A stretch of DNA of 64,000 nt from an uncultured Clostridia bacterium (GTDB lineage Bacteria; Bacillota; Clostridia; Christensenellales; Borkfalkiaceae). Made by a program: the position numbers and the translations under genes. A model generated the notes under the pieces. That model worked only from the letters and a program-made list of their open reading frames with translations. It searched no databases and was not told the DNA's origin. The DNA is taken from the NCBI GenBank assembly GCA_947627575.1, contig CANQWN010000007.1, positions 1-64,000 of the forward strand, in the 5' to 3' direction. This document shows, in pieces, positions 28,219-31,395 of the stretch (positions are counted from its first letter, which is position 1; each line of letters starts with the position of its first letter).

Positions 28219-28638
28219 ATGCGGGCGGTAAAACACATTATTTTGGCGGCGTTTGCGGTTGCGCTTTGCGCGTTGCCGGGTTTGCTTAAAACGCGGCTGT
28301 GCTTTGCCGGCGGAACCGACCGGGCGTTCTTTTGCGGGCACACTTCGGCGGACTGCCGCGAGGTGGAATGCGGAAAATTTCCTGCGCTGGAAAGGCTTGC
28401 GCTTAAAGACGTATGCGGCGAAAAAGCCTACTACCCCTCCTTCGACCTCGAAAGTTTTTTAAACGGCGTAAACGGCAAAATTCTGTTTACCGAAGAGTGC
28501 GGCGACGGCGTGAATTACTACTGTTCCGCAAACCTGCCGTACAGCATAACGCTTTACGGCGAAGAGGTGAACCTGCACGTCTTTATGCGCGGCGACGGCG
28601 CAACGGTGGGTTCGCCGATAATTTTCGGCGGATACTGA
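28219..28638 (+). CDS. Exported YwmB-like protein (short)
   Basis: A 139-residue protein with an N-terminal signal or anchor (HIILAAFAVALCALPG) and an otherwise polar sequence. The C-terminal part (VNLHVFMRGDG ... GSPIIFGGY) resembles the end of YwmB, the TATA-binding-fold protein encoded near spoIID/spoIIQ in Bacillus, but the protein is much shorter than YwmB (about 240 residues). Identification leans on the next gene being SpoIIQ-like and is tentative. AAGGGGGG precedes the ATG. Confidence 0.5.
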   Translation: MRAVKHIILAAFAVALCALPGLLKTRLCFAGGTDRAFFCGHTSADCREVECGKFPALERLALKDVCGEKAYYPSFDLESFLNGVNGKILFTEECGDGVNYYCSANLPYSITLYGEEVNLHVFMRGDGATVGSPIIFGGY

Positions 28639-28688: not shown

Positions 28689-29348
28689 ATGAAAGAAGAA
28701 AAAAAGAAAAGCAAAAAGAAAATCTTACTCTACTATTTAATTCTCGGGATCTGCCTGCTTGTCATAGCGGCGGTTACGGTAACCGTTATCTTTGCGGTAA
28801 ACCGCTCGGGAAAGAATAAGTTGACCGCGGACGGCGGCACGCAACAGCAGCCCTCCGAACAGAACCCCGGCAATTCCGGCGGCAGCACAGTAAATCCCCC
28901 CGACGACGAAGAGCCGCAAGACACTTCCTCGGCATACGAATTTTGCCTGCCCGTAGACAACGCGGAAGTTACCACCAAATACGAATTTTACGCCAACGAG
29001 ACCATACACCAATACCGCGACCATATGGGTATGGACTTTAAGGGCAACGCGGGCGACAACGTTATGGCGGCGATAGACGGCACCGTTGTGGAAGTAGGAA
29101 GGGACAACGTGTATTACGGCGGTTACGTAATTATTTCCCACGCGAATAACATACAGACCGTATATAAATTCATCGACCCCGCCGCAGAACTTAAAGTAGG
29201 CGACAAGGTGAACCGCGGCGATGTTATAGGCTGTATAGCCGAAGCCTGCGGGATAGAAAAATATCAGGGCGCGCATTTGCATTTCGAAGTTAAAGAAAAC
29301 GATAAAAATACCGACCCCGCAAATCATCTGAACGGCATTGAAAAATAA
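28689..29348 (+). CDS. SpoIIQ-like M23 family membrane protein
   Basis: A 219-residue protein with a Lys-rich cytoplasmic start, one membrane helix (about 12-38), a Ser/Pro/Gln-rich linker and an M23/LytM domain. The zinc motifs are present: HMGMDF (HxxxD) and HLHFEV (HxH). In Bacillus, SpoIIQ of this architecture anchors the SpoIIIAH channel in the forespore membrane, with LytM residues often degenerate; in clostridial forms they can be intact, as here. A general M23 endopeptidase is the alternative. GAAGGAG gives a good ribosome binding site. Confidence 0.75.
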   Translation: MKEEKKKSKKKILLYYLILGICLLVIAAVTVTVIFAVNRSGKNKLTADGGTQQQPSEQNPGNSGGSTVNPPDDEEPQDTSSAYEFCLPVDNAEVTTKYEFYANETIHQYRDHMGMDFKGNAGDNVMAAIDGTVVEVGRDNVYYGGYVIISHANNIQTVYKFIDPAAELKVGDKVNRGDVIGCIAEACGIEKYQGAHLHFEVKENDKNTDPANHLNGIEK

Positions 29349-29366
29349 TATACCCATCCCCCCGAA

Positions 29367-29403
29367 GCCCCGAGCGCGGTTTTCCGTGCGCGGGGCTTTT
29401 TTT
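29367..29403 (+). terminator. Terminator of the SpoIIQ-like gene
   Basis: Stem GCCCCG(A)GCGCGG / CCGTGCGCGGGGC around TTTT, followed by T7. Confidence 0.85.
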
Positions 29404-29462
29404 ACGCTTTTTTGCGCCGCTTATTTTAATCCCGGGCGGCATATGTAAAATAGTCTATAAAA

Positions 29463-29570
29463 ATGTTATTTTCATTCAAATGTGAAAATTAATTGCAATT
29501 TTAAAATATTAAAAATGAAAATTAACATATTTTATACTTACAAACATAAAATAATGATAGAAAATAACAT
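29463..29570. repeat. Cluster of GAAAAT(T)AACAT repeats in AT-rich DNA
   Basis: Copies: ATGTTATTTTC (29463-29473, inverted), GAAAATTAATT (29484-29494, partial), GAAAATTAACAT (29517-29528) and GAAAATAACAT (29560-29570). They lie within about 200 bp of unusually AT-rich sequence immediately upstream of the microprotein promoter and look like operator or UP-type sites. No coding region is seen from 29404 to 29696. Confidence 0.6.
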
Positions 29571-29602
29571 ATATAAAATTTTTAAAATTTTTTCAACTGT
29601 TA

Positions 29603-29631
29603 TTGACTAACATTTTTTTTAGTGCTAAACT
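29603..29631 (+). promoter_or_regulatory. Promoter of the microprotein locus
   Basis: -35 TTGACT (29603-29608), 17-nt spacer, -10 TAAACT (29626-29631). The transcript would start near 29638 and carry both microprotein genes to the terminator at 30011. Confidence 0.7.
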
Positions 29632-29696
29632 ATGGGCAAATCGAGGGAGGAAATACCCTTGATGCACAAATTAAATCTTTCAGGAGGTTTAAAACA

Positions 29697-29789
29697 ATGA
29701 CTACGATTTACGATATGTTGAACGAGCTGGACGACTGCGCGAAAGGGGTTTCCCCTCTTTCGTACGTAGCTTTGAACTGCGCAAGATAA
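29697..29789 (+). CDS. 30-residue microprotein A, unknown
   Basis: Not recognised. A 30-codon frame starting at 29697 behind a perfect AGGAGG. It begins MTTIYDMLNELDD, has a variable middle (CAKGV) and ends SPLSYVALNCAR. A tandem paralogue at 29893 shares IYDMLNE-x-DD and SPL-x-YVALNCAR, while the matching codons differ mostly at synonymous positions (for example ATT/ATC, TTG/TTA, GAG/GAA, GTA/GTT, AAC/AAT). That pattern indicates selection on the peptide. There is no signal peptide; the N-terminal half is acidic and the C-terminal half mildly hydrophobic, with cysteines at 14 and 28. Confidence 0.7.
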   Translation: MTTIYDMLNELDDCAKGVSPLSYVALNCAR

Positions 29790-29892
29790 TTATAAATATA
29801 ATTTTGTAACCCCTGTTCCGCGCAAGGCTCGGTAAAAAGCCGCGGCGGACATACCCGATCATGAAAATAAGTTTAAAGGAGGTGCCTTTAAT

Positions 29893-29988
29893 ATGTTTAT
29901 CTACGATATGTTAAACGAAATGGACGACGTCAACGGCAGAGAATATATCTCACCTCTGTGCTACGTTGCTCTCAATTGCGCAAGATAA
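29893..29988 (+). CDS. 31-residue microprotein B, paralogue of A
   Basis: Not recognised. A 31-codon frame starting at 29893 behind AAGGAGGTG. It opens MFIYDMLNEMDD, has its own middle (VNGREYI) and ends SPLCYVALNCAR, with cysteines at 23 and 29. The spacer from microprotein A (29790-29892) contains no other clear gene. Both microproteins have strong ribosome binding sites and share one promoter and terminator. Possible roles include a signalling or RiPP-like precursor or a small regulatory protein, but no modifying enzyme or exporter lies beside them, so none is proposed. Confidence 0.7.
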   Translation: MFIYDMLNEMDDVNGREYISPLCYVALNCAR

Positions 29989-30010
29989 TTTTCATTGAAT
30001 AAAAAGATAG

Positions 30011-30049
30011 GTCGGCGTGTAAACATTTTTACGCGCCGACTTATATTTT
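30011..30049 (+). terminator. Terminator of the microprotein locus
   Basis: 13-bp stem (30011-30023 with 30028-30040, one G-T pair) around CATT, followed by TTATATTTTG. It may also serve the converging regulator gene. Confidence 0.8.
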
Positions 30050-30063
30050 GCAAAAAATAATTT

Positions 30064-31395
30064 TCAGATGCGGTTTATCTGTTCCGCGGTTACGCCCGAA
30101 TAGTTTAAAACGGCTTTGCCCCCCGCCCCTTCCACGGGGGCGAACAGGTAATCGGAAACGCACTTCACGTTTATGCCGCGCGCGGCGGCAAGCCTCTTTA
30201 TCTCCCCGTCCGTAAGCGAGGGGATATTTGCTATCATATGCAGTCCGCTTCCGCTGTCCTCAAGCGTCACGCCCTTAAACTTCCCCGCGCGTTCGCACAG
30301 GGTCTGCCGCACGCCGCGGTAATAGTTTTTAAGGCGGTTTAGGTGCCTTTCAAAGTAGCCGCCGTCGATAAGTTTCGCCAAAGTTTTCTGCTCGAACAGC
30401 GGCACAACGCAAGCCGAACTGCCGAACAGGGACAGATATTTTTCGTACAGCGCGGCGGGCAGAACCATATACCCCAACCGCATTGAAGGGGCAAGGCTTT
30501 TGGAAAAGGTGTTCATATATATCACCCTGTCCGCGCCCAACCCGAAAGCGCATTGCAGGGGCTTGCCCGAAAGCCTGAATTCGCTGTCGTAATCGTCCTC
30601 TATAACGTACGCGCCGCGCGAGCGCGCCCAATTGATTATCTTTGCCCTGCTGCCCATAGGCGTAACCGCGCCCGTGGGGAACTGGTGGGAGGGCGAAAAG
30701 TGCAACACGTCCGCCCCCGTTTTTTCAAGTTCTTCCGGGTCAACGCCGTTCGCGCCCACGTTTACGAAGCGGCACTCCGCCCCGTTCAGCTTATATGTGT
30801 TGTAAATTTTATTGTACCCGGGGTTTTCCAGCGCGAAAATTTTATCCCTGCCGAGAAGCTGAACTATTACCCCGTACAGGTATTCCGCCCCCGCGCCTAT
30901 CACCACAAGGCGCGGGTCCACGTCTATGCCGCGCGCACGGTAAAGATAGCCCGCCACCGCGCTTTTAAGTTCGGGGTCGCCGTCGCAGGGCACACGTTCA
31001 AGCAGATGCGCGCCGCAGTCCGAAAGCACGCCGCGCATAAGCCGCGCCCATACCGAAAACGGAAACAGTTCTGCGGGGGGTGCGCCGTGAACGAAGTCCG
31101 CGGTAAATTTTTTCTGTTCGGCGCGTTCGGGCAAAGCCGCGGTTTTTTCGCCGTAAAATTGCACGTTCACGTCCTCTACAAAGTATCCGCTTCTCGGTTC
31201 CGAACGGATATATCCCTCGGCAAGCAACTGCTCGTATGCGGTCTGCACGGTTATTACGCTTACGGAAAGATTTTCGGCGAGGGTGCGTTTGGAGGGCAAC
31301 TTTTCGCCCGCTTTCAGCTTACCGGAAAGTATATCGTTGCGGATATGGCGGTAAAGCGAAAGATATTTGCAACATTGTAACTCGTAAGTAAGCAT
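30064..31395 (-). CDS. MocR/PdxR-type regulator (GntR HTH fused to aminotransferase)
   Basis: A 443-residue transcription factor. Residues 1-75 form a GntR winged helix (LPSKRTLAENLSVSVITVQTAYEQL); the rest is a fold type I aminotransferase-like domain with PLP lysine in NTFSKSLAPSMRLGY. Relatives sense PLP or amino acid adducts and regulate vitamin B6, GABA or amino acid genes. No pdxST lies here, so the target is unknown. A pair of TACGTA boxes overlaps its leader, suggesting autoregulation. AAAGGTG precedes the ATG. Confidence 0.9.
   Translation of the reverse strand: MLTYELQCCKYLSLYRHIRNDILSGKLKAGEKLPSKRTLAENLSVSVITVQTAYEQLLAEGYIRSEPRSGYFVEDVNVQFYGEKTAALPERAEQKKFTADFVHGAPPAELFPFSVWARLMRGVLSDCGAHLLERVPCDGDPELKSAVAGYLYRARGIDVDPRLVVIGAGAEYLYGVIVQLLGRDKIFALENPGYNKIYNTYKLNGAECRFVNVGANGVDPEELEKTGADVLHFSPSHQFPTGAVTPMGSRAKIINWARSRGAYVIEDDYDSEFRLSGKPLQCAFGLGADRVIYMNTFSKSLAPSMRLGYMVLPAALYEKYLSLFGSSACVVPLFEQKTLAKLIDGGYFERHLNRLKNYYRGVRQTLCERAGKFKGVTLEDSGSGLHMIANIPSLTDGEIKRLAAARGINVKCVSDYLFAPVEGAGGKAVLNYSGVTAEQINRI

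Follow-up and report, generated by a model that had tools for sequence, protein, structure and literature searches.

We describe a family of microproteins that extends across one genus of Clostridia, is maintained by selection, and lies behind a single constant promoter whose operator is shared with an unlinked gene of the DeoR family; behind this promoter, the microproteins themselves are exchanged between lineages. We give an even chance to the interpretation that the paired promoter sites are bound by the predicted DeoR-family regulator and that the peptides dock onto a host protein in the cell. DNA binding, the sign of regulation, the inducer, high expression, action inside the cell, and the target are what we infer from the DNA.

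The locus lies in the window, the whole 64,000-nucleotide stretch analyzed here (contig CANQWN010000007.1, positions 1 to 64,000). The original prediction described two small frames with AGGAGG sites, a shared promoter, and a strong terminator, and all of these are present (frames at 29697-29789 and 29893-29988). It overlooked the conserved double-palindrome promoter, the hairpin at the 5' end of the message, and the other microproteins that occupy the same place in relatives, and it proposed no mechanism. The features of the locus are the following.

29528..29553, plus strand: far-upstream conserved AT-rich element, with the relatives' consensus TTATC-N-GTATTATCATA (alignment of 45 promoter regions)
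29555..29569, plus strand: palindrome O1, TGATAGAAAATAACA, one mismatch to TGTTA-N5-TAACA (0-1 mismatch in 79/85 promoters)
29598..29612, plus strand: palindrome O2, TGTTATTGACTAACA, over the -35 box, predicted DeoR-type operator (0-1 mismatch in 82/85 promoters)
29603..29631, plus strand: sigma-A type promoter with TTGACT, a 17-nt spacer, and a TG-extended -10 TAAACT (pattern scan and alignment of 45 loci)
29636..29665, plus strand: hairpin at the predicted mRNA 5' end (z -2.95 for 29636-29690)
29682..29687, plus strand: Shine-Dalgarno AGGAGG of ORF A (sequence)
29697..29789, plus strand: ORF A, 30-aa family-1 microprotein (ATG frame; family matches and selection)
29877..29882, plus strand: Shine-Dalgarno AGGAGG of ORF B (sequence)
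29893..29988, plus strand: ORF B, 31-aa family-1 microprotein (ATG frame; family matches and selection)
30007..30044, plus strand: intrinsic terminator hairpin followed by a T-rich tail (-26.4 kcal/mol, z -7.5)

The distance from AGGAGG to ATG is 9-10 nt in both frames. The bare promoter pattern occurs there at chance level (3 found versus 2.8 expected from shuffles). The terminator was recognized by folding against shuffles, of which 0/200 were as stable, and is absent from the pattern-scan list. The neighbors are as originally named, a SpoIIQ-like gene and a MocR regulator: the M23/SpoIIQ-like gene, which has its own terminator, scores 73.7 bits (below its 250-bit cut-off), and the PdxR-type MocR regulator on the opposite strand scores 469.8 bits against a cut-off of 320. 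Directly before the SpoIIQ-like gene is a 139-aa gene (window 28219-28635) with no Pfam match at the cut-off. In a first set of 50 loci, 49 of them fetched for having a family match plus the window, SpoIIQ-like genes are nearby in 27 and PdxR genes in 24, and the position of the locus in the chromosome varies; the 139-aa gene is likewise in 27/50, mostly together with the SpoIIQ-like gene. The absence of an export or modification enzyme beside the locus was borne out, as the window neighbors examined by profile include no maturase, exporter, or immunity gene. That the locus stands alone is correct for its physical neighbors and incomplete otherwise, for the shared operator links it to the unlinked DeoR-family gene.

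We searched for the family in 61 genomes of the same genus and 40 other genomes, using the two window copies as seeds. Matches at E < 0.003 are found in 48/61 same-genus genomes (the window's own included), none with an internal stop, and the 40 genomes outside the genus gave no family match below E 0.01. A contig collection contributes 17 named matching records, labeled uncultured Clostridia and once Christensenella, several of which duplicate contigs of the genus genomes. The first 50 loci carry 80 copies of 27-36 aa; 25 of these loci have a single copy, and the other 25 have between two and four. An ATG start fits 80/80 copies (the script tried ATG first), and within 30 nt upstream AGGAGG is present in 69/80 and GGAGG in 76/80. 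In an enlarged set of 116 family-1 copies from 71 genus genomes (102 loci), two tyrosines are invariant (116/116), the near-C-terminal cysteine is kept in 110, and the last arginine in 100.

The family-1 peptides are under purifying selection. The median pairwise dN/dS is 0.47 (Nei-Gojobori, 1586 pairs with pS of 0.05-0.6), a value to be read as a family average because paralogues are mixed in among the pairs, and the ratio is <1 in 98% of pairs. ORF A and ORF B of the window differ from each other by a pS of 0.66 and a pN of 0.26 over the whole pair. For the conserved blocks of this pair, 7 synonymous and 2 amino acid changes had been claimed; our recount gives 8 synonymous changes and 1 amino acid change. 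Translation and selection on the peptide, which the original prediction had argued from these codons, are well supported by the ATG starts, the ribosome sites, the intact frames, and the dN/dS ratios, and the check that it proposed, conservation in close relatives, came out in its favor.

The statement that the peptides belong to no known family also holds, for Pfam, NCBIfam, PHROGs, PADLOC, the PDB, and the literature searched with their C-terminal letters. Neither window peptide falls in a Pfam or NCBIfam family, and the one Pfam hit (E 0.031) is below the cut-off and spans five residues. There was no match in PHROGs with ORF B or in PADLOC with both window peptides, the PDB searched with the family-1 profile gave none (best E 0.36), and no paper was found with the C-terminal letters. 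Five database proteins, none of them named or with a Pfam domain, came up in protein searches whose reach is limited to close relatives. AlphaFold2 predicts ORF B with moderate confidence as two helices (residues 3-17 and 21-26; mean pLDDT 74), and a Foldseek comparison of this predicted structure with the PDB gave 0 matches and named no fold.

The promoter block is more constant than the peptides behind it. Its order is an AT-rich element, a TGTTA-N5-TAACA palindrome, an A/T tract, a second palindrome over the -35 box, and an extended -10. Among 45 aligned promoter regions, 28 of 121 columns are invariant, 13 of which were imposed by the picking pattern and 15 of which are free of it; the CA of CATA in the far-upstream AT-rich element is invariant. 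A sequence-only covariance model of the block matches 90/93 genus genomes at E 0.05 or better, mostly once per genome, and 82/93 at E < 1e-8, where 44 of the 82 genomes supplied model sequences and 38 did not. In 297 genomes sampled from the order, matches at E < 1e-8 are confined to the genus itself and two sister-genus genomes, and 150 genomes of the family gave the same distribution. The 11 weaker hits (E > 1e-8) that were read, from the genus, the sister genus, and other genera, have no microprotein array by sight. The strict pattern finds no promoter in 14/102 loci, some of which are second fragments or are cut by contig ends and some of which have variant promoters.

The two palindromes, O1 and O2, are 43 bp apart. 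O2 is present with zero or one mismatch in 82/85 promoters, a count to which the picking pattern contributes by fixing part of the right half. O1, on which the pattern imposes nothing, is present at the same stringency in 79/85. Upstream of O2, a spacing of 5 between the half-sites is found in 79/85 promoters versus 2.9 in shuffles, and the other spacings from 0 to 10 reach a maximum of 7/85. The two sister-genus promoters, which are in neither the model nor the picking pattern, keep both O1 and O2 at N5 with one mismatch each and with the same 43-bp step.

The message is predicted to begin with a hairpin. At least four pairs, starting within the first 13 nt after the likely transcription start, can form in 78/88 leaders (a count made without a shuffled control). 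Paired changes are seen at one position as A-T in 31 and G-C in 30 leaders and at another as A-T in 17 and C-G in 17; relative to shuffles the median z is -1.9, with z below -2 in 40/88. The hairpin may serve as a message stabilizer. Five loci (L071, L074, L094, L209, and L210) have no 5' hairpin, and their leader is very short, with the ribosome site almost immediately after the transcription start.

The window's genome has only two exact copies of TGTTA-N5-TAACA, one over the -35 box of the locus and one about 30 bp ahead of the ATG start of a solitary DeoR-family gene on another contig.

Contig 10 of the window's genome, 4691-5446: DeoR-family gene, 252 aa, with HTH_DeoR and DeoRC domains

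Both domains of the product score above their Pfam cut-offs (HTH_DeoR, 53.2 bits; DeoRC, 139.9 bits), and NCBIfam subfamily models match it below their own cut-offs. A reversed-pattern control in this genome gave 3 sites versus the 2 true ones, so the motif alone is not rare, and the weight lies on conservation and position. Since the two sites could be chance, their conservation was tested across the genus. The gene is present in 58/61 genus genomes, with relatives 80-92% identical, and 30 upstream regions were fetched, of which 28 could be anchored and 2 could not. Of the 28, 13 carry an exact copy of the relaxed motif TGTKA-N5-TMACA, versus 0 in shuffles, and 23 carry a copy with at most one mismatch, versus 0.85; most copies lie near -28, -66, and -130. 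No other spacing from 0 to 12 gave an exact match, including spacing 7, which is found within one mismatch in 17/28; five of the 28 regions lack an N5 site even at one mismatch. Upstream of an unrelated conserved gene, used as a control, 1/30 regions had an exact site and 3/30 a site within one mismatch. In the sister genus the sites before the DeoR gene are much less regular. Because the regions are related by descent, the site counts are not independent, and the contrast between spacings is the stronger point. The simplest reading of the sites at the regulator's own gene would be autoregulation.

The regulator is not dedicated to the microprotein locus, because its orthologues are also kept by genus genomes that lack a convincing match to the promoter (G021, G022, G025, G046, G056, G101, and G104) and in other genera, where they are 63-75% identical; more distant relatives are 37-42% identical. 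Several of the genus genomes without a convincing promoter match have exact N5 sites at the DeoR gene. The gene is thus older than the locus; the regulator therefore probably serves other functions as well, and the locus would have come under its control. In 25 genomes there are 135 exact relaxed sites versus 74 control sites, so further targets are possible, and part of the excess lies elsewhere. Of 40 other sites inspected, 8 fall within long frames and 32 do not; four of the latter adjoin pectinesterase-type genes, an assignment checked by Pfam for one of the four proteins. In these four genus genomes (L317, L319, L337, and L338), TGTKA-N5-TMACA stands upstream of the gene with three different spacers, and in three of them a membrane-protein gene, each time of the same kind, is oriented divergently to it. 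The pectinesterase-type genes may be further targets of the same regulator.

Two other assignments were considered and set aside. A uronate/KDPG regulon was suggested by sites at a KDPG/KHG aldolase gene (by Pfam) in two genomes, but 30 orthologous regions gave 1 exact site and 3 within one mismatch. A different conserved block, around ATCCGTTTTGTGTATGGA, lies upstream of a KDPG/KHG aldolase gene (by sight) in L339-L368, pointing to another regulator; the aldolase product behind this block has about 120 extra C-terminal residues. The MocR/PdxR neighbor was set aside as the regulator of the microprotein locus because it is nearby in only 24/50 loci, some of which are cut by contig ends.

The contents of the locus change behind the constant promoter. 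Several genus genomes without a family-1 match keep the promoter, followed by small frames with good ribosome sites. We cataloged chained frames of 15-50 aa with a Shine-Dalgarno-like stretch behind 88 promoters in 80 genomes, among which chance frames are possible. There is one frame behind 37 promoters, two behind 29, three behind 17, four behind 3, five behind 1, and none behind 1, giving 163 peptides with a median of 31 aa. A family-1-like peptide is missing by a loose pattern from 22/88 promoters, one of which, in G004, proved to have such a peptide on reading. The other sets, sorted by sight, include KLLGNM...ARFYLALSN, IFxxLL...LPLVYLALTN, MIYELF...AFINAFLRTM, KINFEKL...FLNSARL, an acidic MFFDFN set, and a basic WLRY set, among others. 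In eight further loci (L190, L191, L194-L197, L138, and L199) a promoter of the same type accompanies another microprotein set, partly as a second locus. An array of five in L212 (3470-3920) opens with three MDMYxNLTQTC-type peptides in tandem, each containing two or three cysteines, and continues with two family-1 copies. Such exchange of peptide types suggests that the targets, or the needs for specificity, differ between species.

The WLRY set follows both sister-genus promoters. Its peptide, basic and 16-22 residues long, has the form M-K/R-F-I-x-W-L-R-Y-x-x-S-L and was seen in L226 (minus strand), L228, L131, L183, and L186; both sister-genus genomes have it as their product, and in three genus genomes the first frame encodes it. 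This form may be the oldest. Profile comparison links family 1 to family 3 (P 2.3e-5) and family 3 to family 2 (P 6.3e-6); families 1 and 2 are linked directly only at 0.09, and families 1 and 8 weakly (4.9e-4). Common descent of all microprotein types was not upheld, as the profile links in this comparison, which covered families 1, 2, 3, and 8, join some sets and not all. Peptides of the other types tried against PHROGs (9), NCBIfam (10), and Pfam (5) gave nothing above the cut-offs.

Across the catalog, in which most peptides are of family 1, the hydrophobicity of the last 12 residues exceeds that of the first half in 143/163 peptides, and K, R, or H occurs within the last four residues in 144/163. 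The median body charge is -4. With respect to type I toxins, the peptides are mostly acidic and their hydrophobic ends are short.

From these sequence features, it is likely that a DeoR-type regulator controls a burst of microproteins that act inside the cell. The DeoR-type protein would sit on O2, over the -35 box, and on O1 and would shut the promoter by blocking polymerase. The step of 43 bp, about four helical turns, could allow looping, as in Escherichia coli DeoR. A metabolite, by analogy with the family probably a phosphorylated sugar, would make the protein let go, and one to five microproteins would then be made in a burst, owing to the extended -10, the A-tract upstream region, the 5' hairpin, and ribosome sites that are near perfect. 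Most of these are acidic in the body and hydrophobic in a short C-terminal segment with a basic end residue, and by analogy with SgrT they may bind and tune a cell protein through this hydrophobic end. We place their action inside the cell because no signal peptide was seen by sight and no exporter occurs among the recurrent neighbors read.

SgrT is a small-protein regulator under sugar-phosphate-responsive control. Like it, the microproteins are short and would act in the cell, and sugar-phosphate control is predicted for them; they differ in coming in several copies and families, and we claim for them neither a sequence relation to SgrT nor a dual-function sRNA. A parallel for the control region comes from an excerpt of PMC5326754, according to which E. 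coli DeoR binds TGTTAGAA-TTCTAACA, loops between separated operators, and responds to deoxyribose-5-phosphate. The E. coli DeoR operators (deo, nupG, and tsx) have the same half-sites, TGTTA and TAACA, and come as two separated operators. As in that system, the DeoR-domain gene has matching sites in its own promoter region. The spacer is N5 here, both in the promoters and upstream of the DeoR gene, versus N6 in E. coli DeoR, whose targets are nucleoside genes; the predicted target here is a microprotein set.

It is rather unlikely, in our view, that the peptides are instead exported without a leader, as species-specific signals or antagonists whose sequences diverge under fixed control. Phenol-soluble modulin operons and leaderless bacteriocins consist of frames of 20-40 aa with their own ribosome sites, often tandem, leaderless, and divergent between species. 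The locus shares with them its short frames (about 30 aa, each preceded by its own ribosome site and, in roughly half of the loci, arranged in tandem), the lack of a visible leader, and strong divergence between species behind a fixed promoter; the basic WLRY-type peptide, at 16-22 aa, also fits secretion. Unlike them, most of the peptides are acidic, as the median body charge attests, with a hydrophobic C-terminal end, and no double-glycine or Sec leader is seen by sight. Eight recurrent neighbor clusters of the 50 loci, read by sight and in two cases by Pfam, include no peptide exporter, and neither these nor the window neighbors examined by profile hold the maturase, exporter, or immunity gene expected beside RiPPs and leaderless bacteriocins. 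The sole transport protein among the clusters is an ECF riboflavin-type S component (by Pfam), beyond the PdxR gene in 11/50 loci; a membrane protein with no Pfam match above the cut-off lies directly downstream in 4/50. An arms race with phages, in which the peptides would be phage derived or antiphage, could explain fast exchange and a variable chromosomal position, but SpoIIQ-like and PdxR genes stay near the locus in about half of the 50 loci. Viral contigs gave no match to the exact promoter pattern or to the family-1 peptide, nor did phage records searched with ORF B, PHROGs with 10 peptides, or PADLOC with the two window peptides, and we regard this origin as very improbable.

A more serious doubt, about as strong as that concerning export, attaches to the identity of the binder: a different protein, such as a redox regulator of the Rex type or another dimeric repressor, might own the palindromes, with the DeoR gene merely another of its targets. 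Shared operators show coregulation and not which protein binds. The Rex motif of Clostridia is TTGTTAA-N4-TTAACAA, that is, N6 between TGTTA and TAACA, and its half-sites TTGTTAANNNNTTAACAA look like those found here, where the spacing is N5. A Rex regulon was rejected on this spacing, as N6 is found upstream of O2 in 0/85 promoters and in the DeoR upstream regions has 0 exact matches and 2/28 within one mismatch. E. coli DeoR, in the excerpt of PMC5326754, uses the same half-sites as the locus, which favors the DeoR-type protein over another repressor. There is also little to recommend the view that the transcript itself functions, as a regulatory RNA protected at its 5' end by the hairpin, with frames that are incidental or dual function. 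The strong terminator and the 5' hairpin, kept with paired changes in the leaders counted above, would suit an RNA, but the codon-level purifying selection and the kept ribosome sites oppose it, and Rfam gave no family at the gathering score over 29340-30070. Least credible of all is an attenuator or arrest switch with the frames as its leader peptides. The short frames, the 5' hairpin, and a promoter bearing operator-like sites might suggest one, but the strong terminator lies behind the frames, the next gene of the window (PdxR) is on the opposite strand, and even the commonest same-strand gene directly downstream occurs in only 4/50 loci.

We return to control by a DeoR-type protein and to microproteins that act inside the cell. 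Somewhat more tentatively than for the regulatory scheme itself, we propose that one DeoR-operated unit, fixed across the genus and reaching the sister genus, is a socket into which lineages fit microproteins of 16-48 residues, duplicating and discarding them, and that these are species-specific modulators triggered by a metabolite. The DeoR family itself is known; a unit that combines a fixed DeoR-type control region with exchangeable microproteins was not found described in the open-licence papers searched (titles and the starts of abstracts).

Small proteins are mostly found singly and without a hint of their control, and here one control region marks a whole repertoire. The promoter can therefore be used as a search tool for proteins near the limits of gene callers: the model reached 82/93 genomes, 38 of them outside its own sequences, versus the five database proteins obtained by protein searches that reach close relatives only. 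The predicted link to a known regulator family offers a direct experimental entry to the system. The pairing of constant DNA with changing peptides also poses an evolutionary question, namely, what drives peptide change under a control that stays still. If the fixed promoter does act as such a socket, each species would have its own metabolite-triggered protein modulators, easily missed by ordinary gene calling.
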